55,651 bases of DNA from NCBI GenBank assembly GCA_011390365.1, contig JAABSM010000017.1:1-55651 (forward strand), read 5' to 3'. The position numbers and the translations under genes are program-made. Source of the DNA: Gammaproteobacteria bacterium (GTDB taxonomy: Bacteria; Pseudomonadota; Gammaproteobacteria; Chromatiales; Chromatiaceae). Shown here piece after piece: positions 11,225-51,487 of the stretch. Under the pieces are notes generated by a model. That model saw only the letters and a list, made by a program, of their open reading frames with translations. It was not told where the DNA came from and searched no databases. Every line of letters starts with the position of its first letter. Within the stretch, counting starts at the first letter, position 1.

Positions 11225-11468
11225 CTGGGAATGTGCGGTGGCATGGCGGCATCCTTGCCGCTGGCCGCCGTGCTTCCGTTCGCGGCATGACGTGGTTTTT
11301 CGATTGCGGGGCATCGAGCGACGGGGTGTGGATCACGGGGGGGCGTGATCGGCGCGGGGAATCTTCTTTCTCCGCGGTGCGATTTCGGGTAATATTGGCC
11401 GATTTGGTTCTGGGGCAGGGTCGCATCTGGTGCGAGCCCTACGCAACCTTCATTGCTGCCGAGCGTGT

Positions 11469-20787: not shown

Positions 20788-20801
20788 GAGATGGTCGCAA
20801 G

Positions 20802-26119: not shown

Positions 26120-26178
26120 GCCAGGGCGCAACGGCAGCGCCGTTCGCGTAATCTTCGTGCAATTTTCGGGAACAGGTG

Positions 26179-36767: not shown

Positions 36768-38591
36768 TCAGGCGGGTTCGATCTCCATCAACGCCTCGTT
36801 GGGGTTGACCGCGTCGCCCTTTTTGACATATAGCTTGACCACCTTTCCTCCGATAGGAGATTGGATCTCGGTCTCCATTTTCATCGCCTCGGTGATCAGT
36901 ACCGCCTGGCCCGCCTCGACCGCGTCGCCCTCGGCGACCAGCACGTCGACGATGTTGCCGGGCATCGAGGTGGCGACGTGGCCGGGTTTGCTGGGGCGGG
37001 GGCGGGCGCCCTCGATGGACTCCTTGACCGCGCCCCGGGCGCCGCCCGCCAGTACCAGTTCATCCAGGGTCTCAAGGGCCACCTCTTCGGGGATGCCGTC
37101 GACGGTGAAGTACATCTGGCGCACCGACTGGTCCTTGTGGCCGGCGCCGGTGACCTTGATGTGATAGCTCTCGCCGTGCAGCACCACGTTGAATTCGGTG
37201 GGGGCGTTCTTGTTGTCACCCGCCTCCTTGGGCGGCTCCAGGGGCTCCGGTTGCAGGGTGCCGTCGGCGCGTTGCTGGAGATAGGTGCGGGCGACATCGG
37301 GGAACATGGCGTAGGTGAGGATATCCTCTTCCGAGCTGGCGAGGCCGTCCACCTCTTCGCGCAGCTTTTCCAGTTCCGGATTGAGCAGGTCGGCGGGGCG
37401 GCATTCGATCAGGTCCTCCTTGCCCACCGCCTGTTGCTGCAGGGTGGGGTTGACCGGCGCCGGGGCCTTGCCGTAGCCGCCCTGGAGGTAGCGCTTCACC
37501 TCGTTGGTGATGGTCTGGTAGCTCTTGCCGGTGAGGACGTTGAGCACCGCCTGGGTGCCGACGATCTGGGAGGTGGGGGTGACCAGCGGCGGGTAGCCCA
37601 GGTCCTTGCGCACCTTGGGGATCTCGGTAAGCACCTCGTTCATGCGGTCGATGGCGTTCTGCTCCTTGAGCTGGTTGGCCAGGTTGGAGATCATGCCGCC
37701 GGGGACCTGGTTGACCTGGACGCGGGTATCGACGCCGGTGAAGTCGCTCTCATACTGATGGTATTTCTTGCGGATCTGGTGGAAGTAGACGCCGATCTCC
37801 TGGGTCTTCTCCAGGTCCAGGCCGCTGTCGTATTCGGTACCGGCGAGGGCCGCGACCATGCTCTCGGTGGGGGCGTGGCTGGTGCCGCCGGCGAGGGAGG
37901 AGATCACCGTGTCGATGTGGGTGCAGCCGTTCTCGATCGCCTTCAGATGGCACATCTCGGCAAGCCCGGCGGTGGCGTGGGAGTGGAGGTGGAGCGGCAG
38001 ATCCACCGCATCCGACAGCGCCTTGAACAGCTCGGCGGTGGCGTAGGGGGTGAGCAGCCCGGCCATGTCCTTGACCACGATGGAGTCGCAATCCATCGCC
38101 TTGAGTTCTCTGGCCTGCCTGACGAAGGCCTTGATGCTGTGGGCCGGGCTGGTGGTGTAGCAGATGGTGCCCTGGGCATGCTTGCCCGCCTTCTTGGTGG
38201 CGGCGATGGCGGTCTTCAGGTTGCGCAGGTCGTTGAGCGCGTCGAAGATGCGAAAGACATCCATGCCGTTGGCGGCGGCCTTTGCCACGAAGGCGCGCAC
38301 CACATCGTCGGAGTAGTGGCGGTAGCCGAGCAGGTTCTGGCCGCGCAGCAGCATCTGCAAGCGGGTGTTGGGCAGCGCCTCGCGCAGTTGGCGCAGGCGC
38401 TCCCAGGGGTCTTCACGCAGAAAGCGCACGCAGGCGTCGAAGGTGGCCCCGCCCCAGCACTCCAGCGACCAGTAGCCAATGGCGTCGAGTTTGGGGCAGA
38501 TCGGCAGCATGTCTTCGGTACGCATGCGTGTCGCCAGCAGGGATTGGTGGCCGTCGCGCAGGACGAGTTCGGAGATGTGGACCTTTGGCAT
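36768..38591 (-). CDS. pycB: Pyruvate carboxylase subunit B (OadA-like, biotin-carrying)
   Basis: Carboxyltransferase plus biotin carrier; with PycA it converts pyruvate and bicarbonate to oxaloacetate. ATG at 38591 gives 607 residues. The barrel starts ISELVLRDGHQSLLATRMRTED and includes ECWGGATFDAC and VVKDMAGLLTPY. The conserved-domain linker follows. The C-terminal biotinyl domain has EAMKMETEI with the biotinylated Lys near 571. The same family contains oxaloacetate decarboxylase alpha, but the oadB and oadG membrane subunits are absent. A biotin carboxylase gene lies 56 bases upstream, so the carboxylase reading is preferred. It supplies oxaloacetate to the TCA cycle or biosynthesis. 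Confidence 0.88.
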   Translation of the reverse strand: MPKVHISELVLRDGHQSLLATRMRTEDMLPICPKLDAIGYWSLECWGGATFDACVRFLREDPWERLRQLREALPNTRLQMLLRGQNLLGYRHYSDDVVRAFVAKAAANGMDVFRIFDALNDLRNLKTAIAATKKAGKHAQGTICYTTSPAHSIKAFVRQARELKAMDCDSIVVKDMAGLLTPYATAELFKALSDAVDLPLHLHSHATAGLAEMCHLKAIENGCTHIDTVISSLAGGTSHAPTESMVAALAGTEYDSGLDLEKTQEIGVYFHQIRKKYHQYESDFTGVDTRVQVNQVPGGMISNLANQLKEQNAIDRMNEVLTEIPKVRKDLGYPPLVTPTSQIVGTQAVLNVLTGKSYQTITNEVKRYLQGGYGKAPAPVNPTLQQQAVGKEDLIECRPADLLNPELEKLREEVDGLASSEEDILTYAMFPDVARTYLQQRADGTLQPEPLEPPKEAGDNKNAPTEFNVVLHGESYHIKVTGAGHKDQSVRQMYFTVDGIPEEVALETLDELVLAGGARGAVKESIEGARPRPSKPGHVATSMPGNIVDVLVAEGDAVEAGQAVLITEAMKMETEIQSPIGGKVVKLYVKKGDAVNPNEALMEIEPA

Positions 38592-38647
38592 GTTGGGTAC
38601 CTCTTGCATACGAATTCTTTATGTAGCGGCTAGCGGCTTGAAGCTTT

Positions 38648-40066
38648 TCACAATCCCGCGTGGGCGGCGACGGCGGCGGCCAGCACCACCGCCAGATCTT
38701 CGCGGCGGCGCTTGCACGAGTATTCGATCAGTTCCGGGTGGGCTTCGACGAAGCCGGTGTTGAATTTGCCGTTCCGGAACTCTTCGGAGTTGAGAATCTC
38801 CAGATAGTAGGGGATGGTGGTGCGCACCCCGAATACGCCCATGTCGCGCAGCGCCCGTTTGCCGCGCCGTACCACGTCATCCCAGTCCAGCGCCCAGACG
38901 ATCACCTTGGCGAGCATCGAGTCGTAGTAGGGCGGAATGGTGTAGCCGGTGTAGATGGCGGTGTCGACCCGCACCCCGGGGCCGCCGGGGGCGTAGTAGC
39001 GGGAGATGCGCCCGAACGAGGGCAGAAAGTTGTTCTTCGGGTCCTCGGCGTTGATGCGCAATTGCATGGCGTAGCCGCGGATACGGATCTGGTCCTGTTG
39101 GAAACGCAGCTCCAGGCCGTAGGCGATGCGAATCTGCTCCTCGACGATATCCACTCCCGTGATGGTCTCGGTGATGGTATGCTCTACCTGAACGCGGGTG
39201 TTCATCTCCATGAAGTAGAAGCGATCCTGATCGTCCATCAGGAACTCCACCGTGCCGGCGTTGGTGTAGCCCACGGCCTTGGCGGCGATCACCGCCAGCC
39301 CGCCGATGTACTGGCGCTGGGCGTCACCGAGTTGGGGCGAGGGGGCGATCTCGACCAGTTTCTGGTTGCGCCGCTGGATCGAGCAGTCGCGCTCGAACAG
39401 GTGAATGACGTTGCCGTGGTGGTCGGCGAGCACCTGCACCTCGATGTGGCGCGGCTTGACCACGCACTTTTCGAGGAATACGTCGGCGCGTCCGAACGCC
39501 TTGGTCGCCTCGGAGATGACCCGTTCGTAGTTGCGCTTCAGTTCGGCGGCGCTGTCGCAGCGGCGAATACCGCGACCGCCGCCGCCGGAGGTGGCCTTGA
39601 GCATGACCGGATAGCCCAGCTCTTCGGCGATGACCAGTGCCTCCTCTTCGCTGTGGACGTTGCCGTCGGAGCCGGGCGTGACCGGCACCCCCGCGTCCTG
39701 CATCGCGTAGCGGGCCTCGGTCTTGTCACCCATGCGGCTGATCACCTCGGGGCTGGGGCCGATGAAGGAGATGCCCCGCTTGGCGGCGGCCTCGGCGAGC
39801 ATCGGGTTTTCCGAGAGGAAACCATAGCCTGGGTGGATGGCGTCGCAGCCGGTGGCCATCGCCAGATTGACGATCTGGTAGACGTTGAGATAGCCGGCGA
39901 GGGGGTCGGCGCCGATACAATAGGCCTCGTCCGCCTTCTTGACGTGAAGGGAGTAACGATCCGCCTCGGAGTAGATGGCTACCGAGCGGATGCCCATTTC
40001 GGTGCAGGCGCGAATGATTCGCACCGCGATCTCGCCGCGATTGGCGATCAGAATCTTGCGGAACAC
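38648..40066 (-). CDS. pycA: Pyruvate carboxylase subunit A (biotin carboxylase)
   Basis: Biotin carboxylase subunit, related to AccC; it carboxylates the biotin on PycB using ATP and bicarbonate. The 472 residues start MFRKILIANRGEIAVRIIRAC. They contain HPGYGFLSENP, the ATP-grasp glycine loop KATSGGGGRGIRR, RHIEVQVLADHHGNVIHLFERDCSIQRRNQKLVE and FMEMNTRVQVEHTITE. Catalytic Glu, Arg and Lys positions are all there. It is the promoter-proximal gene of pycA-pycB. A separate accC for fatty-acid synthesis is not in this window, but pairing with an OadA-like gene argues for the pyruvate role. Confidence 0.88.
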   Translation of the reverse strand: MFRKILIANRGEIAVRIIRACTEMGIRSVAIYSEADRYSLHVKKADEAYCIGADPLAGYLNVYQIVNLAMATGCDAIHPGYGFLSENPMLAEAAAKRGISFIGPSPEVISRMGDKTEARYAMQDAGVPVTPGSDGNVHSEEEALVIAEELGYPVMLKATSGGGGRGIRRCDSAAELKRNYERVISEATKAFGRADVFLEKCVVKPRHIEVQVLADHHGNVIHLFERDCSIQRRNQKLVEIAPSPQLGDAQRQYIGGLAVIAAKAVGYTNAGTVEFLMDDQDRFYFMEMNTRVQVEHTITETITGVDIVEEQIRIAYGLELRFQQDQIRIRGYAMQLRINAEDPKNNFLPSFGRISRYYAPGGPGVRVDTAIYTGYTIPPYYDSMLAKVIVWALDWDDVVRRGKRALRDMGVFGVRTTIPYYLEILNSEEFRNGKFNTGFVEAHPELIEYSCKRRREDLAVVLAAAVAAHAGL

Positions 40067-40243
40067 ATTGACCTCCGGAAGTGGGGCGATTGCCAGGATT
40101 AAAATAGCAGGTCAGTAGCCGGTTGCGCAATAGAGCCGATTAATAATCATGCAATATTTAAGCCAGAATTCGAGGGATTATACCGGGCCGAGCGCGTGTT
40201 GTGAGGGCTTCATGCGCGGTTTGCCGGCGGTCGTGGCAGGGTG

Positions 40244-40648
40244 ATGATGGATTGTCTGGACATGACCGGAGTTCACCAGGTGATGGACGCCTTGCTTGAC
40301 CGTCGCTCGCCCGAACAGGAAGGTGGGGCGGGGGCGAGTGCCGCACCGGCGCTCGCCGCCGTGCAACGGCTTCGCCCGACGCTGGAGCGGCTGCGCCGGG
40401 CGGCGGCGGCCTATCCGGACTATGCGCTATTGCTTGAGGTCGGGGTCGTCCTCGACGATGAGGAGCTCTCGGCCTGGGCCTTCGCGGGCGCCTTGACGCG
40501 CATGCGTACCATCCACCAGGGGGAGGCCACCGCCGATCGGCTGGAGCGATTGGCCAGCTTGACGGGGCACGGGAGGCCGCCCTGGTTTGGAGAGGTGGTT
40601 TACGGTTTGCGCAACCCGCTGCGGCGCGATAGCCTCCGCGACCCCTGA
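40244..40648 (+). CDS. Hypothetical protein
   Basis: A possible 134-residue protein on the plus strand, divergent from pycA, with several candidate starts (GTG 40241, ATG 40244 and 40247). It is acidic and Ala/Leu-rich and mainly helical by eye (APALAAVQRLRPTLERLRRA, ATADRLERLASLTGHG), with no signal peptide or membrane segment. I recognise no family. Third-position GC bias is like that of real genes here, but that is also true of antisense frames in this genome, so the call is weak. It is 172 bases upstream of the transporter cluster. Confidence 0.4.
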   Translation: MMDCLDMTGVHQVMDALLDRRSPEQEGGAGASAAPALAAVQRLRPTLERLRRAAAAYPDYALLLEVGVVLDDEELSAWAFAGALTRMRTIHQGEATADRLERLASLTGHGRPPWFGEVVYGLRNPLRRDSLRDP

Positions 40649-40820
40649 CTCAGCACGCCTTTCGCGCATGTCGAAGCGGCTGGTGTGATTGCTTTCCGTA
40701 ACCATCGGGATAGAATAGCCAGCCTTTTTCGCTCTAGCGCGATCATGACACCTGCAAGCGCCATGCTGCCCAGGTCGCCGCGATCGCGAGGGCGTGAGCC
40801 CCATAACAACAAGTTGAAAC

Positions 40821-42725
40821 ATGCCAATGACCGATGGACCGCACCAGCGCCAGGATAACGAGGATTTCGCCTCCACCATCCAGGCCGAGATTCTCCTGGA
40901 AGATCCCCTGTTTCGCGATTGCGACAGGGTCGGTATTGCGCGGCTGCTCAATAACGCCGCGCGACTGCGCGTCGGCGAGGGGGAGTGGCTCTACCGACAG
41001 GGGGATACCGCGGATCATATCTACCTCATTGAGAAGGGGTGGTTGGCGTTGCAGCGCGGCGAGAAGCGGATCGGCATGCGCCAGAAGGGGGCGATCGGGC
41101 TGGAGGGGGTGGTCGGCTATGCCGAGTTTCGGGATGATGCGAAGGCGCGTACCGATGTGACCCTGATCTCGATACCCGTCTCCGAACTGAGCCAGCTCGC
41201 GGAAGGCGACAGCAAGGTACTGAAGGGTTTTTTTGCCGCCTACGATCGCCGTTTTCTCGATCGGGGTGCGGTTCCGAAAATCGCGGATTCCGATGAAAAG
41301 GGGGGCGGTGGCGAGGGGAAGGGCCTCAATCGACAGTTGCTGGGGTGGCTGTTGGCGATCCTGTTTCCCCTTCCGCTCTATCTAATGCGGGATTCGCTGG
41401 GGGTGACCACCGACGTGCTGCTGTTTCTCGGCATCATCGGCGAAGCGGTGATCATGTGGGTTTTCGATCTGGTACCGCCGTTCGTGCCGCCCCTGTTCAC
41501 CTTGCTGCTGGTGGTGCTGCTGGAGGTGGCGCCGGCGCGGGTCGCCCTGTCGGGGTTCTCATCCGGGACCTTCATTCTGTGTCTGAGCGTGTTCGGCATC
41601 AGCGCGCTGATGATCAAGTCCGGCCTGGCTTACCGTCTCTCCATCGGCTTGCTGCGTCGGGTACCAAAGGGCCGTATCTGGTATAGCTTCAGTCTGTTCA
41701 TGGTCGGCGTTTTCCTGACGCCGCTGGTGCCGAGCAAGGCGGGGCGAATCTCCATCTTGCAGCCGTTTCTGATCGAGTTGATGAACCTGGGGGACCGGGG
41801 CCGGCGCAATGATACCGCAACCCAGTTCGTGACCAGCGCGGTACTGGGCATTTCCCTGATGTCGCCCATTTTTCTCACCGGCAGCGCCATGAATCTGGTG
41901 ATGTTCGGTCTGTTCGATGAACAGACCCGTTTTACCTTCAACTGGCTCTACTGGTTATTCGTCGCCTCGTTGCCTGGGTTGTTGTTGATGGCCGGCTATC
42001 TGCTGCTGATGTGGGCGCTGTTTCGGGATGGGCGCAGGATCGAGCTCTCCAAGGAGAAGCTCAAGGAGCAGGGTCGGGCGCTGGGGGGCATGTCGGCGCT
42101 GGAGATGGGCACCCTCATCACCCTGGTGTGCATGGTCATCCTGATTCCGACGGTCAAGTTTCACAGGATCGAGATCCCCTGGTTGATGCTCACCATCAGC
42201 GTTATCCTGCTACTGTTCGGGGTGATCGGGAACCGGGATTTCAAGAATGGCATAGATTGGCCGATACTGGTCTTCATCGGCGCGGTGCTGGCCTGGCCCG
42301 GGGTGATCTCCATGATCGGCATGGATGATCTGATCGCCGAGCTGCTGGAGCCGGTAGGCTGGTACATGAAGAACGAGTTTTTCCTCTTCGCAATCCTCCT
42401 TTCCCTTGCTATGATGGGCCTGCGCCTTTTTCTGCCCTATCACGTCGCGGTGGTGGTATTCGCGACGACGCTTATGCCGGTGGCCAACGAGTCCGGGGTC
42501 TCCCCCTGGGCGATTGGCTTTATCATTCTCATGATGGCGGAGGCATCGGTCTTCGCCTATCAGGATATCCAGCGGGTGCAAGCGGAGAGTGCGCTTGAGC
42601 TGCATGGCCTGGCGGGGGTGGTTAACGAAGGGAAAGCGAACCTGGCTTACCTGATCATGGCGATCATGCGCATGGCGGTAATCCTGGCCTCCATACCAAT
42701 CTGGATGAAACTCGACATCATATAA
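40821..42725 (+). CDS. Cyclic-nucleotide-binding-type domain fused to SLC13/DASS-like permease (paralogue 1)
   Basis: The 634-residue protein has a Crp/cNMP-type cytoplasmic domain at about residues 25-150: RLRVGEGEWLYRQGDTADHI, YLIEKGWLAL, GLEGVVGYAEF, ARTDVTLISIP. A hydrophilic linker and about 11-12 membrane segments follow. The membrane part follows the SLC13/DASS (divalent anion:sodium symporter) layout with two repeats: VFDLVPPFVPPLFTLLLVVL, VFGISALMIKSGLAYRLS, then SPIFLTGSAMNLVMFG. The first-repeat hairpin reads LTPLVPSKAGR where Na+-coupled members have S-N-T, so the coupling ion or substrate may differ. It begins a co-directional set and touches paralogue 2 by one base (taATG). The substrate is unknown. 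Confidence 0.75.
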   Translation: MPMTDGPHQRQDNEDFASTIQAEILLEDPLFRDCDRVGIARLLNNAARLRVGEGEWLYRQGDTADHIYLIEKGWLALQRGEKRIGMRQKGAIGLEGVVGYAEFRDDAKARTDVTLISIPVSELSQLAEGDSKVLKGFFAAYDRRFLDRGAVPKIADSDEKGGGGEGKGLNRQLLGWLLAILFPLPLYLMRDSLGVTTDVLLFLGIIGEAVIMWVFDLVPPFVPPLFTLLLVVLLEVAPARVALSGFSSGTFILCLSVFGISALMIKSGLAYRLSIGLLRRVPKGRIWYSFSLFMVGVFLTPLVPSKAGRISILQPFLIELMNLGDRGRRNDTATQFVTSAVLGISLMSPIFLTGSAMNLVMFGLFDEQTRFTFNWLYWLFVASLPGLLLMAGYLLLMWALFRDGRRIELSKEKLKEQGRALGGMSALEMGTLITLVCMVILIPTVKFHRIEIPWLMLTISVILLLFGVIGNRDFKNGIDWPILVFIGAVLAWPGVISMIGMDDLIAELLEPVGWYMKNEFFLFAILLSLAMMGLRLFLPYHVAVVVFATTLMPVANESGVSPWAIGFIILMMAEASVFAYQDIQRVQAESALELHGLAGVVNEGKANLAYLIMAIMRMAVILASIPIWMKLDII

Positions 42726-44614
42726 TGAAATCCTTAGAAAGTAGCGATATCGAATTCGTTATCGGGAATCCGCTGTTTCGACAAATGCGCCCGATGGACC
42801 GAGCGCGTATCCTGGGCCATGTCCGACGGCGTGATCTCGCCGCCGGGGAGATGCTCTATGAAGAGGGCGGCTCCAGCGAATATATCTTCCTCGTCGGCAA
42901 GGGCAACCTGCTGTTCAAGGATGGTGACAAGGAGTCCTTGGTTACCGCGCATGCGCCTCTTGGCGAAGAGACGCTGCTAGGCAGCGAGGTATTGATCGGC
43001 AGTGCGGCGGCCACTGAGACATCGGTGGTCTACCTGTTCCCGAAAAGGCGGCTGGGAGAGGTGATCAACGGCTCCCCCAGGCTGCGCACCATCCTCTTCG
43101 AGCAGTTGATGATGCGTACATCCGTGACCGGGCAGGGTGATCTCGAGACGACCGTGGCCGCGGTGCGGCGCAAGACGGAGGTGGAGAGCGAGCAGACGAT
43201 TACCGCCAGCGGAACGACGATTCGCCTGCTCGGCTGGCTGCTGGCGGTGCTGGTTCCCGCCGCGGTGCTTCAGTACGGCCCCGACATGGGGCTGGAAACC
43301 AACGCGATCTATTTTCTCGCCATTATCGGCGTGACCATGGTGATGTGGTTGTTCGACCTGGTTCCCGCGTTCGTGGCACCGCTGTTCAGCGTGCTCGCCT
43401 TCATTCTCTTCGACGTCGCGTCGCCAAAGGTGGCGGTGGCGGGGTTCGCCTCGGATGGGTTTTTCATGCTCCTCTCCATCTTTGCGGTGGGGGCGCTGAT
43501 GGTGATGTCGGGGCTTACCTACCGCATCTCGCTGGCGATGCTGCGCATCTTTCCCGGCTCCCCGTTCTGGTACAGCGTCAGCCTGTTTCTGCCCGGCGTC
43601 ATTCTGACGCCGATTCTGCCTTCCCAGTTGGGCCGGACGGTTATCGTAACCCCTTCGGTCGCGGATATGATCGAGATCTCCGGGGCCGGGCGCAACGATC
43701 GCATGGCGGCCCAGTTCGTCGCCAGCGGGGTGTTGGGACTGAGCCTGATGGCGTCCATCTTCCTCACCGGCAAGCCGGCGAACCTGATCGTCTTCGGTAT
43801 GTTCGACGCCCAGACCCAGTTCGCCTTCCAGTGGATGCAGTGGCTGTGGGCCTCACTGGTGGCCGGCGGCGTGCTGCTGCTGCTCTACTTCCTGCTGATG
43901 CCCGTGTTTTTTCGCAACAACCGCGAGTTTCACGTCCCCAAGGAGGTAGTGCGCAATCAGTCGCGCATGCTCGGTCCCCTCTCCTCCACCGAGTGGGCGA
44001 CCATCGCCGCCATCTTGTTGCTGTTGGCGGGTATCCTGACGACCTCTTTGCACAAGGTGGATATCCCCTGGATGTCGATGGCGATCCTGCTGGCGCTGCT
44101 CTTTTTCGGCGCCCTCAAGAAGGAGGATCTGAGCCAGCGTATCGACTGGTCGATCCTGATCTTCATCGGCTCCATCATCGCCTGGGTGCCGGTGATGAAG
44201 ATGACCGGCATCGAGGGGGTGATCGCCGAGACCTTCGCCTGGGTGGGAGACTACATGAAGGAGGATCTCACCGGTTTCGTGCTGGCGCTGTGCGGGTTGA
44301 TCATTATCGTGCGTCTCGCCCTGCCAGAGCTGGTGCTGGAGATCCTGCTGGTGACCATCCTCTTCCCCCTGGCCAGCACCGCGGGTGTCTCGCTGTGGCT
44401 GATCGGGTTCGTGATTCTGACCATGTGCGAAAGCTACATCTTCCCCTACCAGGCCCCTTACCATGTGCAGATGAAGAATATTCTCGGCACCTTCGGGCTG
44501 GAAGGGCGCTATGACGAGACACGGGTGTTGATCTTCAACTTCGTCATGACCCTGGCAAGGGTCGCCGCGATCTATGTCTCCATTCCTTACTGGAAATATC
44601 TGGATATTGTATGA
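42725..44614 (+). CDS. Cyclic-nucleotide-binding-type domain fused to SLC13/DASS-like permease (paralogue 2)
   Basis: The 629-residue protein has the same architecture as the preceding gene and is clearly a tandem duplicate that has diverged. The N-terminal jelly-roll reads HVRRRDLAAGEMLYEEGGSS, YIFLVGKGNLL, HAPLGEETLLGSEVLIGSAA and ATETSVVYLFP; the Arg that normally grips the cyclic nucleotide phosphate is not evident. The permease part includes VPAFVAPLFSVLAFILF, LTPILPSQLGRT (again without S-N-T), SIFLTGKPANLIVFGMF and CESYIFPYQAPYHVQMKN near the end. Start and stop each overlap the neighbours, so it is translated with them. Two such subunits may form a heterodimer; that is inference. Confidence 0.75.
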   Translation: MKSLESSDIEFVIGNPLFRQMRPMDRARILGHVRRRDLAAGEMLYEEGGSSEYIFLVGKGNLLFKDGDKESLVTAHAPLGEETLLGSEVLIGSAAATETSVVYLFPKRRLGEVINGSPRLRTILFEQLMMRTSVTGQGDLETTVAAVRRKTEVESEQTITASGTTIRLLGWLLAVLVPAAVLQYGPDMGLETNAIYFLAIIGVTMVMWLFDLVPAFVAPLFSVLAFILFDVASPKVAVAGFASDGFFMLLSIFAVGALMVMSGLTYRISLAMLRIFPGSPFWYSVSLFLPGVILTPILPSQLGRTVIVTPSVADMIEISGAGRNDRMAAQFVASGVLGLSLMASIFLTGKPANLIVFGMFDAQTQFAFQWMQWLWASLVAGGVLLLLYFLLMPVFFRNNREFHVPKEVVRNQSRMLGPLSSTEWATIAAILLLLAGILTTSLHKVDIPWMSMAILLALLFFGALKKEDLSQRIDWSILIFIGSIIAWVPVMKMTGIEGVIAETFAWVGDYMKEDLTGFVLALCGLIIIVRLALPELVLEILLVTILFPLASTAGVSLWLIGFVILTMCESYIFPYQAPYHVQMKNILGTFGLEGRYDETRVLIFNFVMTLARVAAIYVSIPYWKYLDIV

Positions 44615-45657
44615 AGAATCGGTTGCTTATTCTCGCCAAGCTGGCATTCGTGGTGCTGCTGTGTGTTCTGGTCTACTTCCACAAGGCGCAAAAGCCCCGC
44701 ATCCTGATCCTGCATAGTTACCTCAATGACTACAGCTGGGTGGAGGAGATCAATATCGGCCTGGAACGCTTCTTCTCCGAGCATGAGGATGTCACCCTGC
44801 GTTACCACTACATGGATCTCAAGAACCATGGCGATGAGGCGTTTCGGCGTACCGCGACGGAGATCGCGCGGCGTACCATCGACCGCTGGCAGCCGGACGT
44901 GCTGGTGATCTTCGACGACATCGGCCAGCGTCTGGTGGGCATGCGCTACATGAGTAAATCCGGCATCAGCGTGGTGTACGGCGGGGTCAACGCCGCTGAG
45001 GAAGATTACGGCTATAACATGGCGTCCAACGTGACGGGTATCCTGGAGCGCAAGCCGCTGAAGGCGGTGGAGGATACCGTGAGCATGATCTGGGAGGCCA
45101 CGGGCGGGGGACGGACCCAGAAACCCAAGGTGCAGTTGCTGGGGGACGCCTCGTTCTCGTTCCAGGCCGGCCTGACCGCCTATGATCCAGAGAATTACAA
45201 GTTTACCAAGGTACGCTGGAAAGAGCCGGTGGCGGTGGAGACCTTCGACGAGTGGAAGGAGTTCGTGCTTGGCGCGGACAAGACCAACGACGTGCTGCTC
45301 GTCAGTGATTACCGACAGGTGAAGAAGGCGAAGGGCGGCAAGGAGTTCGTTTTGCCGCGAGAGGTGATGAGCTGGACCGAGCAGAATTCCCCGGTTCCGG
45401 TGCTGGGGCTGGCCGCGATCATCACCGAGGAGGGCGGTATGATGTCCGTTGCCGCTTCGGGGTATGAGCAGGGTGAGGTGGCGGGGCGCATGGCCTATGA
45501 GATCGCCAAGAAAAAGAAGAAGGCCTCGGAGATCCCCAACGCCGAGACCCGCCAGTATCTGATCGGGCTGCGCAAGTCGGCGATCAAGCGTCGCGAGCTT
45601 GATGTGCCCTCCATTTATGAGGCCTTCGCGAGGGCCACGGATAATTTCTACGAGTAG
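44611..45657 (+). CDS. Membrane-anchored ABC_sub_bind-like (PF04392-type) binding protein
   Basis: The 348-residue protein starts in overlap with the permease stop (ATGA). One N-terminal hydrophobic helix (LLILAKLAFVVLLCVLVYF) without a clear cleavage site probably anchors it outside the inner membrane. The rest has a periplasmic-binding fold of the PF04392 type: KPRILILHSYLNDYSWVEEI, LERFFSEHEDVTLRYHYMDL, RWQPDVLVIFDDIGQRLVG and SGISVVYGGVNA. No ABC permease or ATPase accompanies it. It may deliver ligand to the two SLC13-like permeases or sense it for them. The domain name is a judgement from pattern, and no ligand can be assigned. Confidence 0.65.
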   Translation: MKNRLLILAKLAFVVLLCVLVYFHKAQKPRILILHSYLNDYSWVEEINIGLERFFSEHEDVTLRYHYMDLKNHGDEAFRRTATEIARRTIDRWQPDVLVIFDDIGQRLVGMRYMSKSGISVVYGGVNAAEEDYGYNMASNVTGILERKPLKAVEDTVSMIWEATGGGRTQKPKVQLLGDASFSFQAGLTAYDPENYKFTKVRWKEPVAVETFDEWKEFVLGADKTNDVLLVSDYRQVKKAKGGKEFVLPREVMSWTEQNSPVPVLGLAAIITEEGGMMSVAASGYEQGEVAGRMAYEIAKKKKKASEIPNAETRQYLIGLRKSAIKRRELDVPSIYEAFARATDNFYE

Positions 45658-45659
45658 TC

Positions 45660-46376
45660 ATGAAGAAGATTCTTTGCCTCGATTTCGATGGCGTGCTGTG
45701 CGATAGCGCGGTGGAGTGCCTGGTGACGGGTTACAACGCCTATCACGATGCCGCCGTGAGCGGACCGGATGAGATCGAACCCGGACTGCGGGATTACTTC
45801 CTCAAATATCGCTATCTGGTGGGGCCGGCGAACGATTTCGGCGTCCTTTTCCATGCCTTCGAGCAGGGGGGCGAGACATTGACGCGGGAGTCCTATGACG
45901 CGATGCGTGAGGCGACGCGGGCGATGCGCGAGGATTTCGGCCCTCGCTTCTTCGCCAGCCGCGATCGCCTGAAGCAGGATATGGACCACTGGTTGGGGCT
46001 GCATCGCCTGTTCGAGCAGAGCCGGGCGGTACTGGATATTGGATTCCCGTCGTTTTATGTCATTACCACAAAAGATGCGGACTCGGTTATGCGCCTGGCG
46101 GAGTTCAGCGGCTATCATGGGCGGATATTGGGGGTTTACGGCAAGGAGATTGCGACCGACAAGCGCGTCAGCTTTCAGACGCTCTTTCGTGATCGAAATG
46201 ACCAACAGGCCTCCGAGACGTATCTCTTCGTCGATGACAATGTAGTTCATCTGCAACAGGTTTCGGATCTCCCGGTCGAGCCATGGCTGGCGACCTGGGG
46301 GTATGTGGATCCGGAGGCCGCCGAGCGGTTCCGGCACTTGAAGGATCTGGCTGATCTGAAGGGTCTGGTGGAGTAG
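45660..46376 (+). CDS. HAD-superfamily hydrolase
   Basis: The 238-residue protein starts 3 bases after the binding-protein gene. Motif I is ILCLDFDGVLCDS, with the nucleophile and acid Asp at 8 and 10. Motif II is FYVITTKDADS and motif IV ETYLFVDDNVVHLQQV. A helical cap of about 100 residues (LVTGYNAYHDAAVSG onwards) lies between motifs I and II. This is the phosphatase-like branch of the HAD family, cytoplasmic, with no signal peptide. Placed between a transport unit and a GAPDH-like gene, it could dephosphorylate or recycle an organic phosphate intermediate. That is inference. Confidence 0.75.
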   Translation: MKKILCLDFDGVLCDSAVECLVTGYNAYHDAAVSGPDEIEPGLRDYFLKYRYLVGPANDFGVLFHAFEQGGETLTRESYDAMREATRAMREDFGPRFFASRDRLKQDMDHWLGLHRLFEQSRAVLDIGFPSFYVITTKDADSVMRLAEFSGYHGRILGVYGKEIATDKRVSFQTLFRDRNDQQASETYLFVDDNVVHLQQVSDLPVEPWLATWGYVDPEAAERFRHLKDLADLKGLVE

Positions 46377-46426
46377 ATTGCGTCGACCTTACTATCAATA
46401 ATCAGCGGGATATTCGAGGCGCCAAG

Positions 46427-47476
46427 ATGAGTGAAAAAAGTCGTTTGCGGGTGGGAATCAACGGGTTTGGGCGAATCGGGCGGGCGATCTACCGGATCAA
46501 TGCCCAGCGCGATCTGTTCGACGTGGTGGCGATCAACGACATCAATCCGGACGGCGCCAATATCGCCTATCTGCTTCAGTACGACTCCACCTACGGGCGT
46601 CTGGAGCAGCCGGCGACCTTCGAGCAGGGGGAGCTGGTCGTCGGCAAGCAACGCAGCGCCCTCCATCACTTCCCCAATGTCGGCTCGGTTCCCTGGCGCC
46701 AGCATGACGTGGATGTGGTCATCGAGTCCTCCGGCCATCCGGACAATGGCGCCTATCTCGCCTCCGGCGACGGCGGTATCGACTACATGGTACAGACCTA
46801 TACCGCGGATCCGGGGGGGGCGGTAAAGACCATCATCTTCGGCGTCAACGAGGAGGAGTTCGATCCCGCCAGCCATCGCCGCCTGTCGAGCAGTATTTGC
46901 GATACCATCTCGCTGGCGCCGGTGATCAAGCTGCTGGAAGGGCGGTTCGGCGTCGTCGGCGGCTCTCTGACCACGGTACATCCCTGGCTTAACAGCCAGA
47001 ACCTGCTGGACGGACAAGGTGCGACCTGGTTCCATCCCCAGGATAATACCTCCGCCCACGCCCTGGGGCGCGCGGCGGATAATAACCTCATTCCGAAGTC
47101 CACCAGCGCGGTGCTCGCCGCGGAGGCGGTTTTTCCGGGGATCAATTCCCGCATCGAGTCCTTTTCCTTTCGCGTCCCTACCAGTATCGTCTCCGGCGCG
47201 GTACTCAATGTGGAGCTGGAGAAGCCGACCGATCGGGACGGTGTGATGGGGTTGTTCGCGGAGAGAGAACGCACCCAGGAGAGACCCATCTTCCAGAGCG
47301 TTGAAGCGCCCCTGGTCTCCATTGACTATCGCGCCAGTGAATATTCGGCCAATATCGATCAGCGCTGGACCTCGGTGAGAGAGGAGCGAAAGCTGCGCAT
47401 GGTCTACTGGTATGACAATGAATGGGGTTATGCCTCGCGGGTCGTGGATCTGGTGGGGCTGATCGGCGATCGATAG
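46427..47476 (+). CDS. Divergent glyceraldehyde-3-phosphate dehydrogenase homologue
   Basis: The 349 residues keep the NAD-binding start RVGINGFGRIGRAIYR, DINPDGANIAYLLQYDSTYG, the C-terminal YWYDNEWGYASRVVDLV and the catalytic pair Cys158 (SSSICDTISLAP) and His185 (TTVHPWLNSQ). The normally invariant S-C-T-T-N-C loop is changed to I-C-D-T-I-S. The usual A-K-K-V-I-I-S-A-P-S stretch is replaced by an unrelated segment (residues about 105-135). STGAAKAV reads STSAVLAA. It therefore keeps the thiol chemistry but has an altered phosphate or substrate pocket. It may act on a different aldehyde phosphate. It follows the HAD gene by 50 bases and ends at a terminator. Confidence 0.85.
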   Translation: MSEKSRLRVGINGFGRIGRAIYRINAQRDLFDVVAINDINPDGANIAYLLQYDSTYGRLEQPATFEQGELVVGKQRSALHHFPNVGSVPWRQHDVDVVIESSGHPDNGAYLASGDGGIDYMVQTYTADPGGAVKTIIFGVNEEEFDPASHRRLSSSICDTISLAPVIKLLEGRFGVVGGSLTTVHPWLNSQNLLDGQGATWFHPQDNTSAHALGRAADNNLIPKSTSAVLAAEAVFPGINSRIESFSFRVPTSIVSGAVLNVELEKPTDRDGVMGLFAERERTQERPIFQSVEAPLVSIDYRASEYSANIDQRWTSVREERKLRMVYWYDNEWGYASRVVDLVGLIGDR

Positions 47477-47498
47477 GCCTCAGGGCCACATTTTTTCG

Positions 47499-47521
47499 AA
47501 GGGGGTTCAGGCCCCCTTTTT
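47499..47521 (+). terminator. Rho-independent terminator after the GAPDH-like gene
   Basis: AAGGGGG-ttcagg-CCCCCTT followed by TTT forms a 7-base-pair stem with a T-run 23 bases after the stop codon. It closes the transporter-HAD-GAPDH transcript and separates it from the TAXI transporter genes. Confidence 0.82.
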
Positions 47522-47609
47522 GTTGACGATCGGGTATGGGGGCGGTTTCTGCGCAAGGGTGTGGCGGGCCATCCATGCCTGGGAAAATCTCACAAGAGGA
47601 GTTGTTAAT

Positions 47610-48563
47610 ATGAAAATCATTGCCTTAGCCGCAATCCTCGCGGGCTCTGTCGGGTTCGGGGTCGCACAGGCGGCGGATCAGGAGCGGTTCATCAGCATCG
47701 GTACCGGCGGTATCACCGGCGTCTACTACCCCACCGGCGGGGCCATCTGCCGGCTCGTCAACCACAAGCGCAAGGAGCACGGGCTGCGCTGTTCGGTGGA
47801 GTCCACCGGCGGCTCCATCTTCAACCTCAACACCCTGCGTAATGGCGAGCTCGACTTCGGCGTCGCCCAGTCCGACTGGCAGTATCACGCCATGAAGGGT
47901 ACCTCCAAGTTCGAGGAGCAGGGTCCCCTCGACAAACTGCGCTCGGTCTTCTCCATCCACAGCGAACCCTTCACCCTGATGGCCCGTGCCGACAGCGGTA
48001 TCAAGACCCTGAGCGACCTCAAGGGCAAGCGGGTCAATATCGGCAATCCCGGCTCCGGCCAGCGCGGCACCATGGAGGTGTTGATGGAGAAACTGGGCTG
48101 GAGCAGGGACGACTTCACCCTTGCCTCCGAGCTTAAGGCCGCCGAGCAGGCCCGCGCCCTGTGCGACAACAAGATCGATGCCATGGTCTACACCGTCGGC
48201 CACCCCAACGCCTCCATCAAGGAGGCCTCCACCGCCTGCGACGCGGTGCTGATCCCGGTGGCAGGTCCCGAGGTGGATGCGCTGGTGGCGGAGAACCCCT
48301 ACTACGCCAAGGCGACCATCCCCGGCGGCATGTACCGCGGCAGTGATCAGGATACCGCCACCTTCGGCGTCAAGGCGACCCTGGTGACCAGCGCCGACGT
48401 CTCCGACGAGGCGGTCTATCAGGTCACCAAGGCGGTGTTCGATAATCTCGACACCTTCCGCAAGCTCCACCCCGCCTTTGAAACCCTGACCGCCGAAAGT
48501 ATGCGCCAAGGCAACTCCGCCCCGGTCCACCCCGGCGCGCAGCGCTACTTCGACGAGCAGTAG
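47610..48563 (+). CDS. TAXI-family TRAP transporter solute-binding protein
   Basis: Periplasmic receptor of a TRAP transporter. The ATG at 47610 is set by AAGAGGA 9 bases upstream and gives 317 residues with a signal peptide (MKIIALAAILAGSVGFGVAQA). The TAXI signature is SIGTGGITGVYYPTGGAICRLV, followed by CSVESTGGSIFNLNTLRNGELDFGVAQSD, KRVNIGNPGSGQRGTMEVLM and DKIDAMVYTVGHPN. The ligand of most TAXI receptors is unknown; some bind glutamate or related acids. Its permease gene is 371 bases downstream, separated by hairpins and repeats. Confidence 0.94.
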   Translation: MKIIALAAILAGSVGFGVAQAADQERFISIGTGGITGVYYPTGGAICRLVNHKRKEHGLRCSVESTGGSIFNLNTLRNGELDFGVAQSDWQYHAMKGTSKFEEQGPLDKLRSVFSIHSEPFTLMARADSGIKTLSDLKGKRVNIGNPGSGQRGTMEVLMEKLGWSRDDFTLASELKAAEQARALCDNKIDAMVYTVGHPNASIKEASTACDAVLIPVAGPEVDALVAENPYYAKATIPGGMYRGSDQDTATFGVKATLVTSADVSDEAVYQVTKAVFDNLDTFRKLHPAFETLTAESMRQGNSAPVHPGAQRYFDEQ

Positions 48564-48607
48564 TAGAGCCGCGCGCAGGTTTTGCGGGTATTGCCAGGCC
48601 CAGAAAA

Positions 48608-48671
48608 CTCTCACGGCGGCACGGAGCACACAGAGAAATTTTCCTCCGTGATCTCTGTTCCTCGGTGCGAG
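48608..48671. repeat. CACGGAG-family inverted-repeat element (copy D)
   Basis: The left arm is CTCTCACGGCGGCACGGAG then CACACAGAGAA; the right arm is CCTCCGTGATCTCTG then TTCCTCGGTGCGAG. They pair imperfectly around about 5 bases. The motifs match copies A, B, C and E. It begins 44 bases after the TAXI receptor stop. Confidence 0.6.
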
Positions 48672-48715
48672 ATCTTACCCATCCCAATGGGGAGCTGGAA
48701 TTGAGCCGGTCTGAG

Positions 48716-48742
48716 CCGGTCGGGTGTTGCACACCCGACCGG
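48716..48742. terminator. Strong hairpin between TAXI receptor and permease genes
   Basis: CCGGTCGGGTGT-tgc-ACACCCGACCGG is a perfect 12-base-pair stem with a 3-base loop and no T-run. Intergenic hairpins after binding-protein genes often stabilise the upstream mRNA or partly terminate, giving more receptor than permease. It could equally be cargo of the surrounding repeat element (48608-48898). Confidence 0.5.
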
Positions 48743-48859
48743 CGACCGCAACCCGGCGGGGCGCGCGGCTTGACGCGCCAGTGTGTGCTTCGTTGGCGAG
48801 TCTAGCCTCGCGCTCCGCGGTGAAAGGGCGCAGCGCCAGCCATATTCACAAGGGCTCTT

Positions 48860-48898
48860 ACGGAGGAGGGTTCTCCGTGATCTCCGCGCCTCCGTGAC
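48860..48898. repeat. CACGGAG-family repeat (copy E)
   Basis: ACGGAGGAGGG faces TCTCCGTGATCTCCGCG and CCTCCGTGA, a shortened inverted pair of the same motif as copy D. Copies D and E may be the two outer ends of one composite element of about 290 bases. It ends 36 bases before the permease start. Confidence 0.5.
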
Positions 48899-48934
48899 GG
48901 AACCATCCCCGCCCATCCATGGAAACCCTTCGAG

Positions 48935-51487
48935 ATGACCCGATCTCCTGAACAGCTCCTGGAGTCCGTCGAACAGGGCCGCCGCCACCCCAAGGGCTGG
49001 CAGTGGCGCTTCCTCTCCGGCGCCGCCATCCTCTGGTCCCTGTTCCAGCTCTGGGTGGCCTCGCCCATCCCCTACCAGTTCGGCTTCGGCGTCTTCAACG
49101 ATACCGAGACCCGCTCCATCCACCTCGGCTTCGCCATCTTTCTGGTCTTTCTCTCCTTCCCCGGGCGGAACAAGGCCGCGACGGATCGGATTCCGCTCTA
49201 CGACTGGGCCTTGGGGGGCATGGCCGCCTTTTGCGCCCTCTACCTGTTTCTGTTCTACGGTGACCTGGCCAATCGCGCCGGCGATCCCACCGCGCTGGAC
49301 ATCGGCGTGGCGGTGGCGGGGGTGATCCTGCTGCTGGAGGCGACCCGCCGCGCCCTGGGCTGGCCGCTGACCATTATCGCCCTGGTCTTTCTGGGCTACA
49401 CCTTCGCCGGCCCCTGGCTGCCGGACGTAATGGCCCACAAGGGGGCCTCGCTGGAGCGGGTGGCCTCCCACCAGTGGTTGGGCACCGAGGGGGTGTTCGG
49501 CGTCGCCGTCGGGGTCTCCGCCGGTTTCGTCTTTCTGTTCGTGCTCTTCGGCAGCATGCTGGAGCAGGCCGGCGGCGGCCAATACTTTATTCGTGTGGCC
49601 TATTCGCTGGTGGGCCACCTGCGGGGCGGACCGGCCAAGGCGGGGGTGCTGGCCTCCGGCCTCACCGGCATGATCTCCGGTTCATCCATCGCCAACGTGG
49701 TCACCACCGGCACCTTCACCATTCCGCTGATGAAGAAGGTGGGCTTCCCCGGCTTTCGCGCCGGGGCCATCGAGGTTGCCGCCTCCACCAACGGCCAGCT
49801 GATGCCGCCGGTGATGGGCGCGGCGGCCTTCCTGATGGTGGAGTATCTGAACATCTCCTACCTGGAGGTCATCAAGCACGCCCTGTTGCCGGCGCTGCTG
49901 AGTTATATCGCTTTAATGTACGTGGTGCATCTGGAGGCGGTGAAGGCCGGCATGCAGGGCCATCCGCTGCCCTATCGCCCGTTGCAGGCCAAACTGCTGG
50001 GTTGGGGGCTCTCCCTGTCGGGGCTGGCGGTCTTCTCCTTCGTCGCCTGGCTGGCGGTGGACCTGGTGACCCGCATCAGCGGCGACTACGCCTTTTGGGC
50101 CAACGGGGTGCTGATTCTCGGCGGCTACGTGGCCCTGATGTACCTGGAGGCCCGCCACCCGCTGCCGGATCAGCTGGATCCAGAACAACTCGACGGCGCC
50201 CAACTGCCCACCCCCGGCGAGGCGTTGCGCGGTGGCCTGCACTTCCTGCTGCCCATCGTGGTGCTGATCTGGTGCCTGATGCTGCTGCGGCTGTCGCCGG
50301 CCACCGCGGTGTTCTATGCCATCCTGCTGCTGGTGGCGATCCTGCTGACTCAACGATCACTCAAACGGCTATTCAGCGGCAAACCCCTGCTTCCCGGTTT
50401 TCAGGACGGCTGGCGGGATCTGGTCGTCGCCCTGCGCGACGGCGCACGCAACATGATCCCCATCGGTGTCGCCACCGCCACCGCCGGTATCGTGGTGGGC
50501 ACCGTGAGCCTGACCGGCATCGGTCAGGTGCTGGGGGATCTGGTGGAGATCCTCTCCTTCGGCTCGGTACCGCTGATGCTGATACTCACCGCCGTGATTT
50601 GCATGATTCTCGGCATGGGCCTGCCCACCACCGCGAACTACATCGTGGTCTCCACGCTCATGGCCCCGGTGATCGCCCAGCTGGCCGCCTCCCACGGTCT
50701 GGAGATCCCGCTGGTGGCGATCCACCTGTTCGTCTTCTACTTCGGCATCCTCGCCGACGATACCCCGCCGGTGGGCCTGGCCGCCTACGCCGCCTCCGGC
50801 ATCTCTGGCGCGGACCCGATTCAGACCGGCCTGCAATCCTTCTACTACGACCTGCGCACCGCCATCCTGCCCTTTATGTTCGTGTTCAACACCGAACTGC
50901 TGCTGATCGGCATCGACAGCATCCCCGAATTCCTGGTGGTGCTGGCCTCCTCCCTGGCCGCGATGCTGCTCTTCGCCGCCGCGACCCAGGGCTGGTGGCT
51001 GACCAAATGCAAATGGTGGGAGGTGGGCGCGCTGCTGCTGATCGTCTTCTCCCTGTTCCGCCCTGGCTTCTGGATGGATCAGATCTACCCGCCGAGCGAG
51101 ACCCGCCCGGCGATCGAATTCACCCAAGCCGCCGAGGGCTGGCAGGCTGGCGAGACCTTCAAGCTGATCGTCGAGGTAGAGGAGGGGGAGGGCGAGATCA
51201 TCCAGCGCACCCTGGCCTTTCAGCGGCCCGAGGGCGCGGCGGAGCGGGTGCTGGAAAAGCTCGGCCTGATCACCCAACCCGAAGGCGACGCCCTGCGCAT
51301 CGATACCATCGGCTTTCTGAGCCCGGCGGAGGAGGTGGGGTTGATCCCTGGCTTCGCCGTGCGGGTGCTGGGTTTCGAGGAGGCGCTGCCTCAGCCCGAC
51401 AAGGACTGGCTCCTGATCCCGCCGTTGCTGCTGGCGGGGCTGATCGGCTGGGGGCAGATTCGGCGGCGAGAGGCGAAGGCTGCGTAG
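48935..51487 (+). CDS. TRAP transporter fused permease, 4TM/12TM (TAXI type)
   Basis: The 850-residue inner-membrane protein fuses the small (DctQ-like) and large (DctM-like) TRAP permeases, as usual for TAXI systems. Segments include FLSGAAILWSLFQLWVASPI, FGSMLEQAGGGQYFIRVAYS, GMISGSSIANVVTTGTFTIP, VEVAASTNGQLMPPVMGAA-like sequence and GMGLPTTANYIVVSTLMAPV. The C-terminal domain after about residue 700 (EFTQAAEGWQAGETFKLIVE onwards) resembles DUF3394, commonly attached to this type, and ends in one more helix. It imports an organic acid-like solute with a Na+ or H+ gradient; the nearby Mnh antiporter could sustain a Na+ gradient. The ATG is at 48935. Confidence 0.93.
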   Translation: MTRSPEQLLESVEQGRRHPKGWQWRFLSGAAILWSLFQLWVASPIPYQFGFGVFNDTETRSIHLGFAIFLVFLSFPGRNKAATDRIPLYDWALGGMAAFCALYLFLFYGDLANRAGDPTALDIGVAVAGVILLLEATRRALGWPLTIIALVFLGYTFAGPWLPDVMAHKGASLERVASHQWLGTEGVFGVAVGVSAGFVFLFVLFGSMLEQAGGGQYFIRVAYSLVGHLRGGPAKAGVLASGLTGMISGSSIANVVTTGTFTIPLMKKVGFPGFRAGAIEVAASTNGQLMPPVMGAAAFLMVEYLNISYLEVIKHALLPALLSYIALMYVVHLEAVKAGMQGHPLPYRPLQAKLLGWGLSLSGLAVFSFVAWLAVDLVTRISGDYAFWANGVLILGGYVALMYLEARHPLPDQLDPEQLDGAQLPTPGEALRGGLHFLLPIVVLIWCLMLLRLSPATAVFYAILLLVAILLTQRSLKRLFSGKPLLPGFQDGWRDLVVALRDGARNMIPIGVATATAGIVVGTVSLTGIGQVLGDLVEILSFGSVPLMLILTAVICMILGMGLPTTANYIVVSTLMAPVIAQLAASHGLEIPLVAIHLFVFYFGILADDTPPVGLAAYAASGISGADPIQTGLQSFYYDLRTAILPFMFVFNTELLLIGIDSIPEFLVVLASSLAAMLLFAAATQGWWLTKCKWWEVGALLLIVFSLFRPGFWMDQIYPPSETRPAIEFTQAAEGWQAGETFKLIVEVEEGEGEIIQRTLAFQRPEGAAERVLEKLGLITQPEGDALRIDTIGFLSPAEEVGLIPGFAVRVLGFEEALPQPDKDWLLIPPLLLAGLIGWGQIRRREAKAA

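Follow-up and report, generated by a model that had tools for sequence, protein, structure and literature searches.

Results

Genes of the locus

The window, i.e., the whole analysed stretch of 55,651 nucleotides (nt) from Gammaproteobacteria bacterium of the family Chromatiaceae (assembly GCA_011390365.1, contig JAABSM010000017.1), contains a cluster of five genes on the forward strand at positions 40,821 to 47,476. Genes 2 and 3 of this cluster belong to a conserved two-gene unit: an SLC13/DASS permease, usually with an N-terminal domain like those that bind cyclic nucleotide monophosphates (cNMP-like domain), is translationally coupled to a downstream gene for an anchored substrate-binding protein (SBP). 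The features are as follows.

40821..42725, + strand: gene 1, cNMP-like domain (residues about 50-128) and SLC13/DASS permease (173-628); a diverged tandem paralogue
42725..44614, + strand: gene 2, cNMP-like domain (36-115) and SLC13/DASS permease (170-629)
44611..45657, + strand: gene 3, membrane-anchored type-I periplasmic binding protein (the SBP), ABC_sub_bind/TrpX-like
45660..46376, + strand: gene 4, HAD-like hydrolase, accessory
46427..47476, + strand: gene 5, GAPDH-like protein with an altered active site, accessory
47498..47519, + strand: terminator-like hairpin 3' of gene 5, from fold and sequence reading

A preliminary description, made from the sequence, had reported five co-directional genes, the first four overlapping or abutting and the fifth following after 50 nt and ending at a terminator; the coordinates of the open reading frames (ORFs) and the hairpin fold bear this out. 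The successive junctions are a 1-nt overlap, a 4-nt overlap (ATGA), a 2-nt gap and a 50-nt gap. The hairpin has nine pairs, its 3' arm enters a T tract (CCCCCTTTTTG), and its fold is at -14.7 kcal/mol (z -2.7); a pattern scan did not list it. Sigma-70-like promoter matches within 40100-48000 are at chance level (3 vs 2.9 expected). From the gene spacing alone, we infer that genes 1-5 are co-transcribed.

According to Pfam, gene 1 contains cNMP_binding (8.9e-10) and Na_sulph_symp (1.2e-24); together with the family members described below, this confirms the previously noted fusion of a cNMP-type sensor with an SLC13 permease. Gene 2 matches Na_sulph_symp (2.9e-26), and its cNMP match is marginally below the cut-off (27.2 vs 27.5 bits). 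The sole match of gene 3 is ABC_sub_bind, below the threshold (20.6 vs 25.9 bits); gene 4 has a weak HAD match (18 vs 26.4 bits), and gene 5 contains both the N and C domains of GAPDH.

The permease-SBP pair in other genomes

The search within the class covered 229 and then 369 genomes, using gene 3 as well as profiles of genes 1-3 and their relatives. At strict cut-offs, the SBP and permease profiles match the same 7 of the 369 genomes (nine permeases and eight SBPs), with the permease always directly upstream of the SBP and a gap in the SBP scores between 253 and 149 bits. Four of these seven genomes (five loci) were used to build the profiles, and the remaining ones (G232, G330 and G343) are independent matches by both. 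A phylum-wide draw of 398 genomes added 14 further genomes with the permease upstream in 14/14, one of these being a stump at a contig end. A wider genome scan gave 121 SBP relatives, 80 of which were retained (the 80-locus set). The permease is directly upstream of the SBP in 73 of them; two of the other seven loci start at a contig end, and five have no permease there. SBP genes without an adjoining permease in L155, L161 and L185 belong to small-genome, intracellular-type alphaproteobacteria.

The co-occurrence is also reciprocal in another phylum, from which 198 genomes centred on a spirochaete were drawn. Here the SBP (at least 288 bits) was found in six genomes and the permease in seven; six coincide, with the genes adjacent. 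In total, six genomes have both genes, three have one alone, and 189 have neither. Five of the six were already behind members of the 80-locus set (L139, L146, L148, L162 and L183) and fed the profiles, G965 being new; the draw therefore contributes the exclusion of other genomes more than new cases. Two weaker SBP matches (184-195 bits) adjoin kinase-like genes and no permease. The seventh permease, in L206 (8602-10245, + strand), is truncated (547 aa) and has no SBP or cyclase beside it.

The start codon of the SBP gene overlaps the permease gene by 4 nt (ATGA, as in the window) in 16 of 21 related loci; the other five junctions range from -1 to +24 nt. Such co-occurrence and coupling is what one would expect if the two genes encode the parts of a two-component system.

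Within the 80-locus set, the pair occurs in alpha-, beta- and gammaproteobacteria, Magnetococcales, Nitrospirota, spirochaetes and Deltaproteobacteria, as well as in one planctomycete, one cyanobacterial bin and one Pelotomaculum bin. Many of these loci are from metagenome bins, so individual taxon labels may be wrong; their ORFs are six-frame calls made for this analysis rather than annotations. The related loci are not independent, and 9 of the 80 appear to be the same contigs as other related loci that we examined. A pair unique to this genome is thus rejected by the class, phylum and wider scans. In the open-access library searched, we found no published description of a DASS-SBP pair or of a cNMP-SLC13 combination (which does not prove that none has been made); the pair is widespread and apparently undescribed.

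The permease

The AlphaFold2 model of gene 2 has a mean predicted local distance difference test score (pLDDT) of 89.8. Its nearest folds by Foldseek are the DASS structures DiT2.1, NaCT, NaS1, VcINDY and Pho90, with TRAP membrane parts lower; the membrane part thus has the DASS fold. Against the NCBIfam DASS subfamily TIGR00785, the scores are 94 and 104 bits with a cut-off of 198.6. We take this to mark an outlying branch and therefore file the permease as DASS-type and not as a DASS symporter.

The permease family profile is nearest to exchangers (DiT1, 1.4e-21; LaINDY, 2.6e-19; vs VcINDY, 3.1e-8). In the alignment, R304 falls on Arg159 of LaINDY and R530 on its His392; PMC7553777 describes these two LaINDY residues as surrogates that permanently take the place of the two Na+ ions. 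Arginine is at both positions in 53/53 aligned cNMP-bearing permeases, so both Na+ positions have the basic residue of DASS exchangers, the second being Arg and not His. In an 18-row alignment that includes four cNMP-less permeases, the first is kept in 18/18 and the second in 17/18. The SNT motifs that DASS cotransporters have at the Na+ sites are replaced by PSxxxR and RxxxP-xNAT, the usual family motifs being P-S/T-x-N-G-R and R-x-x-x-P-I-N-A-T. P299, R304, R530, P534 and Q576 are invariant in 53/53, and N302 is present in 45/53. Because the arginines replace both Na+ ions in the LaINDY alignment, the permease is predicted to be a Na+-independent exchanger; the reading as a Na+ symporter was rejected on the basis of the motifs at these sites and the alignment with exchangers.

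In L032, the permease (10503-13040, - strand) carries an extra N-terminal sensory region of the 4HB_MCP type ahead of the cNMP-like domain.

The cNMP-like domain

The domain is in the same ORF in 55 of the 73 adjacent permeases. Six of the other 18 cannot be judged, three because the contig ends there and three because the gene is split across two ORFs. The family profile matches PKA/PKG domains, and E82 is invariant across the 53 aligned permeases. Plain cAMP binding via the usual residues was rejected, since the Arg of the phosphate-binding cassette is never kept; judging from these residues, canonical binding is unlikely, and the domain possibly binds another ligand. A large protein encoded after the SBP-cyclase gene in L139 (13080-16388, + strand) also matches the cNMP profile weakly.

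The binding protein

The model of gene 3 (mean pLDDT 95.7) starts with a single helix (residues 2-26), after which comes a type-I periplasmic binding fold. The nearest structures by Foldseek are 3lkv, 3lft (with L-Trp) and 6hni, and CD0873 is among the nearest. The fully conserved residues include S36-Y37, W43, D102, E146 and D179, several of them just past strands of the model; R147, K71 and R235 are frequent as well. Such a combination points to no particular ligand and is unlike a typical anion site.

In L111 (7013-8125, + strand) and L115 (6841-8157, + strand), the start of the permease gene is overlapped by another gene. Its product in L111 is a TAXI-like (NMT1_3) binding protein, with which the L115 product clusters; each is a possible second SBP for one permease. 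In L109 (6371-9211, - strand) and L180 (11060-13903, + strand), the gene directly downstream of the SBP encodes a fusion of a periplasmic-binding domain with an MscS channel domain.

Local additions

The window locus is a lineage-specific version of the module, with tandem divergent permeases and with genes for a HAD hydrolase and an altered GAPDH. Genes 1 and 2 are sisters on the tree (support 100/100; branches 1.03 and 1.66, the latter being gene 1), and the tree carries a long-branch warning that includes the branch of gene 1. By this tree, the two fusions arose through a local tandem duplication. Among 56 relatives (including one other genome of the genus), only two other family genomes contain a permease of this kind; both match from position 159-161 onward, i.e., without the cNMP part. 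The locus in one of these two genomes, L195 (3939-10584), consists of genes for an SBP-like sensor, a cNMP-less permease, an SBP, and sulfotransferase-like and RsbW-like proteins, with a convergent STAS-like gene; the last three were named by eye from their N-termini and from similar genes elsewhere.

No HAD or GAPDH relative was found in the 21 related loci (BLAST E<=1e-8; several loci are short) or within 6 kb of the pair in the 80 loci (E<=1e-6). In the 56 relative genomes no orthologue-like HAD or GAPDH was found: the HAD gene has a single 31% match outside its own genome, and the GAPDH gene matches at no more than 37% identity. The five-gene set was thus rejected as a conserved unit. The preliminary description had proposed a five-gene system, to be refuted by a lack of co-occurrence in other genomes; in the neighbourhood searches, such a lack holds for genes 4 and 5 (21 and 80 loci) and not for the permease-SBP pair (73 of 80 loci).

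Gene 5 has the motif SSSICDTIS in place of SNASCTTNC; the catalytic Cys and His are kept in the alignment, and Ile and Asp stand where canonical GAPDH has Ser and Thr beside the catalytic Cys. We take the latter (Ser148 and Thr150) to be the inorganic-phosphate site; gene 5 is therefore probably not a normal phosphorylating GAPDH.

Neighbouring genes

We compared 80 immediate neighbours of the pair (same strand, within 330 nt, at least 100 aa; 70 from the 80-locus set and 10 from other related loci) with 80 distal control ORFs drawn from the 80-locus set only. The neighbour set excludes the window; 80 of 90 were left after dropping permease-less loci, the neighbour of L189 and the cNMP halves of split permeases. 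Phosphatases of five Pfam families are over-represented here, accounting for 12 of the 80 neighbours (Metallophos 4, Alk_phosphatase 3, PF04185 3, PAP2 1 and His_Phos_1 1), three of them from one Magnetococcales group; 8/12 start with a signal-like stretch as judged by eye. Among the 80 distal ORFs, there is no phosphatase within the Pfam families listed (the first 25 of 85 for the neighbours and of 90 for the distal ORFs), beyond which a single one may lie. The phosphatase hidden Markov models (HMMs) were built from the very neighbours that they count, and their 0/461 distal ORFs and 0/80 controls are biased; the Pfam comparison is unbiased.

In yeast, secreted phosphatases and SPX-DASS transporters serve the supply of inorganic phosphate, as stated in PMC7381174. 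By analogy, the phosphatases beside the pair suggest phosphate. The preliminary description had the uptake of an organic anion in mind; the genes beside the pair in other genomes are at least as suggestive of phosphate. In L033, L076 and L077 (one family), acs-mdh-fumA-fumB lie downstream of the pair on the same strand, which hints at dicarboxylate metabolism.

Class III cyclases are encoded within 6 kb of the pair in 15 of the 80 loci, as well as in L146. These were found by a home-made HMM, and genome-wide cyclases were counted by PF00211 in 49 genomes, L112 being left out. A cyclase is near the pair in 13 of the 49 genomes vs 0.96 expected (8/44 vs 0.91 expected without five of six related small-genome alphaproteobacteria). 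Fourteen genomes have a single cyclase; in six, all of them small-genome alphaproteobacteria, it is the one near the pair. In 5/6 spirochaete-phylum genomes with the pair, the order is permease, SBP, SBP-like sensor with cyclase (in one genome sensor and cyclase are separate ORFs, and in one there is a metallophosphatase in between); the sixth has a divergent cyclase. Other nearby SBP-like sensors carry histidine-kinase or SpoIIE outputs.

Other features of the window

Upstream of the cluster, a divergent gene pair (36768-40066, - strand) with PYC_OADA/biotin-lipoyl and biotin-carboxylase domains resembles a two-subunit pyruvate carboxylase or oxaloacetate decarboxylase. The stretch directly past the hairpin (47610-51487, + strand) encodes an SBP of the TAXI type and a fused TRAP permease that includes DUF3394. 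At 20784-28514 (+ strand) there is a run of genes encoding hybrid histidine kinases, an HD-domain response regulator and a response-regulator kinase.

Discussion

We believe that genes 2 and 3 form the functional core of an SBP-dependent secondary transporter of the DASS type, and we put the probability of this joint explanation at roughly 0.57. Such a transporter would be an SBP-dependent, Na+-independent elevator exchanger, with a logic comparable to that of TRAP, TTT and TAXI-GltS. Its most likely cargo, which we name only tentatively, would be inorganic phosphate or a phosphorylated compound, perhaps exchanged for another anion. Control related to nucleotides may be involved as well: the neighbouring cyclases support it, and the changed cNMP pocket weakens it. 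The same holds for the earlier suggestion of gating by an internal ligand, which agrees with the cyclases and not with the pocket residues. In the window, the permease gene would have been duplicated, both copies diverging at the substrate site and probably forming a heterodimer with shifted specificity. We presume that the HAD hydrolase and the altered GAPDH were recruited here and might act in the cytosol on the imported compound.

A number of observations weigh against this explanation. The SBP has no adjoining permease in 5 of the 78 testable loci, the seventh spirochaete-phylum permease is truncated and without an SBP, and no permease-SBP fusion was found among the 80 loci (natural fusions were rejected accordingly; those large open frames from the class, phylum and spirochaete searches that were inspected proved to be overlapping frames). 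Gene 2 weakly passes the Pfam cut-off for DctM of TRAP (28.2 vs 23.8 bits), and the cNMP-less permease of L188 has Gly instead of the second surrogate Arg. Both window permeases retain the surrogate arginines but have altered the conserved substrate-site Asn and the NAT-type residues (in gene 1, the usual N302, K350 and NAT-type residues); therefore, the substrate or role of the window copies may differ. The acids D102, E146 and D179 of the SBP, conserved in 73/73 and located after strand ends, are unexpected for an anion ligand. As to the cNMP-like domain, 12 permeases lack it (an in-frame stop is close ahead of the permease), and where it is present the Arg of the phosphate-binding cassette is found in 0/53, with Tyr in 44/53. 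For the cargo, acs-mdh-fumAB downstream of three loci fits a dicarboxylate instead, and GDT1 cation exchangers, pentapeptide proteins and other genes are also among the neighbours. Pho-box-like TGTCA-N6-TGTCA repeats upstream of 64 operons do no better than in shuffles, and control by the Pho regulon was rejected on these grounds.

Some of the data would suit a sensor (transceptor), in which the SBP signals ligand occupancy to a transport-dead permease fold, and the cytoplasmic domain relays it to the cyclases, kinases or SpoIIE phosphatases encoded nearby. SBP-like sensor domains account for 9 of the 80 immediate neighbours, eight of which share an ORF with a histidine-kinase, cyclase or SpoIIE output, and Pfam ABC_sub_bind itself is found in 7/80; cyclases, STAS and SpoIIE genes lie nearby, the L032 permease has its 4HB_MCP region, and the window permeases are altered at conserved substrate-site residues. 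Nevertheless, we regard a pure receptor as unlikely, since it would not need the full set of DASS motifs that is kept in 53/53 (P299, R304, R530, P534 and Q576), and the pair is flanked by phosphatases and metabolic genes too. Less probable still is a DASS exchanger that works alone and is merely regulated or localised by the SBP. It is known in general that DASS proteins of known function need no SBP, and TRAP and TT are named as the only SBP-dependent families before TAXI-GltS (PMC12344293); however, the near-complete reciprocal co-occurrence and the translational coupling argue against such independence, and the sole SBP-less permease among the 198 genomes is truncated.

Two further explanations concern the window itself. 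The five genes may constitute a single pathway that takes up and processes a phosphorylated organic acid, much as the preliminary description proposed for an organic anion. In this genome a single transcript is suggested by the gene spacing and by the terminator-like hairpin that follows gene 5, and the HAD and GAPDH families act on phosphate esters or aldehydes. On the other side, no relative of either gene was found with the module in the other loci and genomes searched, the genome holds two other GAPDH genes, and a functional link cannot be shown from one genome; we give this pathway a low probability. It is very unlikely that the window copy is a decaying remnant in which both permeases lost key residues and transport after the duplication. 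The long branches (1.03 and 1.66) and the alteration of N302- and NAT-type residues in both copies would be accounted for, but both ORFs are intact (629-634 codons) and tightly coupled, the surrogate Arg are kept, as is every other position that is invariant in 53/53, and the model of gene 2 is confident.

If an SBP-dependent DASS-type transporter is indeed encoded, the pair would lengthen the so far very short list of transporters that depend on a binding protein and are not powered by ATP. On account of its cNMP-like domain and the neighbouring cyclases, it would serve as a bacterial case of a carrier controlled by nucleotides.

Comparison with known systems

As in SBP-dependent transporters in general, a dedicated SBP gene is linked to the permease gene. 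Like TRAP and TTT, the pair would perform SBP-dependent secondary transport. It is not a TRAP system, as its best matches are Na_sulph_symp, TIGR00785 and DASS structures, and its SBP is neither DctP nor TAXI by Pfam. The SBPs of TRAP and TTT are of a different fold type. The M subunit of TRAP shares the DASS fold (PMC9971032); the permease of the pair is nearer to DASS proteins, and no Q-type small-subunit gene was noticed, none having been searched for.

TAXI-GltS is similar to the pair in that the gene of a tethered SBP is coupled to that of an elevator-type secondary transporter of a kind normally working alone, and in that it was recognised by linkage. The pair is not a TAXI SBP with a GltS permease: TAXI-GltS combines a TAXI SBP with a Na+ symporter of the ESS family, whereas in the pair a type-I ABC_sub_bind-like SBP is joined by a DASS permease with residues of the exchanger kind and, in most cases, a cNMP-like domain. 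TAXI-GltS is supported by ligand-binding data and natural fusions, while the pair is known here from genes and models. According to PMC12344293, only the TRAP and TT secondary transporters were known to depend on an SBP before TAXI-GltS; its authors ask whether the elevator mechanism makes the use of an SBP possible, which further classes would test. A DASS-fold permease (an elevator by family) with a coupled SBP would be a further case of this kind.

By sequence, the closest proteins are LaINDY and the chloroplast DiT1/DiT2.1, which share PS-x-x-x-R in HPin and a basic residue at the Na2-surrogate position; the pair differs by Arg in place of His392 and by having an SBP and a cNMP-like domain. 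Yeast Pho87/Pho90 (SPX-DASS) resemble the pair in bearing an N-terminal cytoplasmic regulatory domain on a DASS permease, which is SPX in yeast and cNMP-like in the pair; to our knowledge, they have no SBP. They are Na+-driven according to PMC13394699. Finally, the TrpX-type ABC_sub_bind proteins (3lft and 3lkv) have the same fold as the SBP of the pair; the NCBIfam TrpX model names them as SBPs of ABC transporters, whereas the partner in the pair is a DASS permease.

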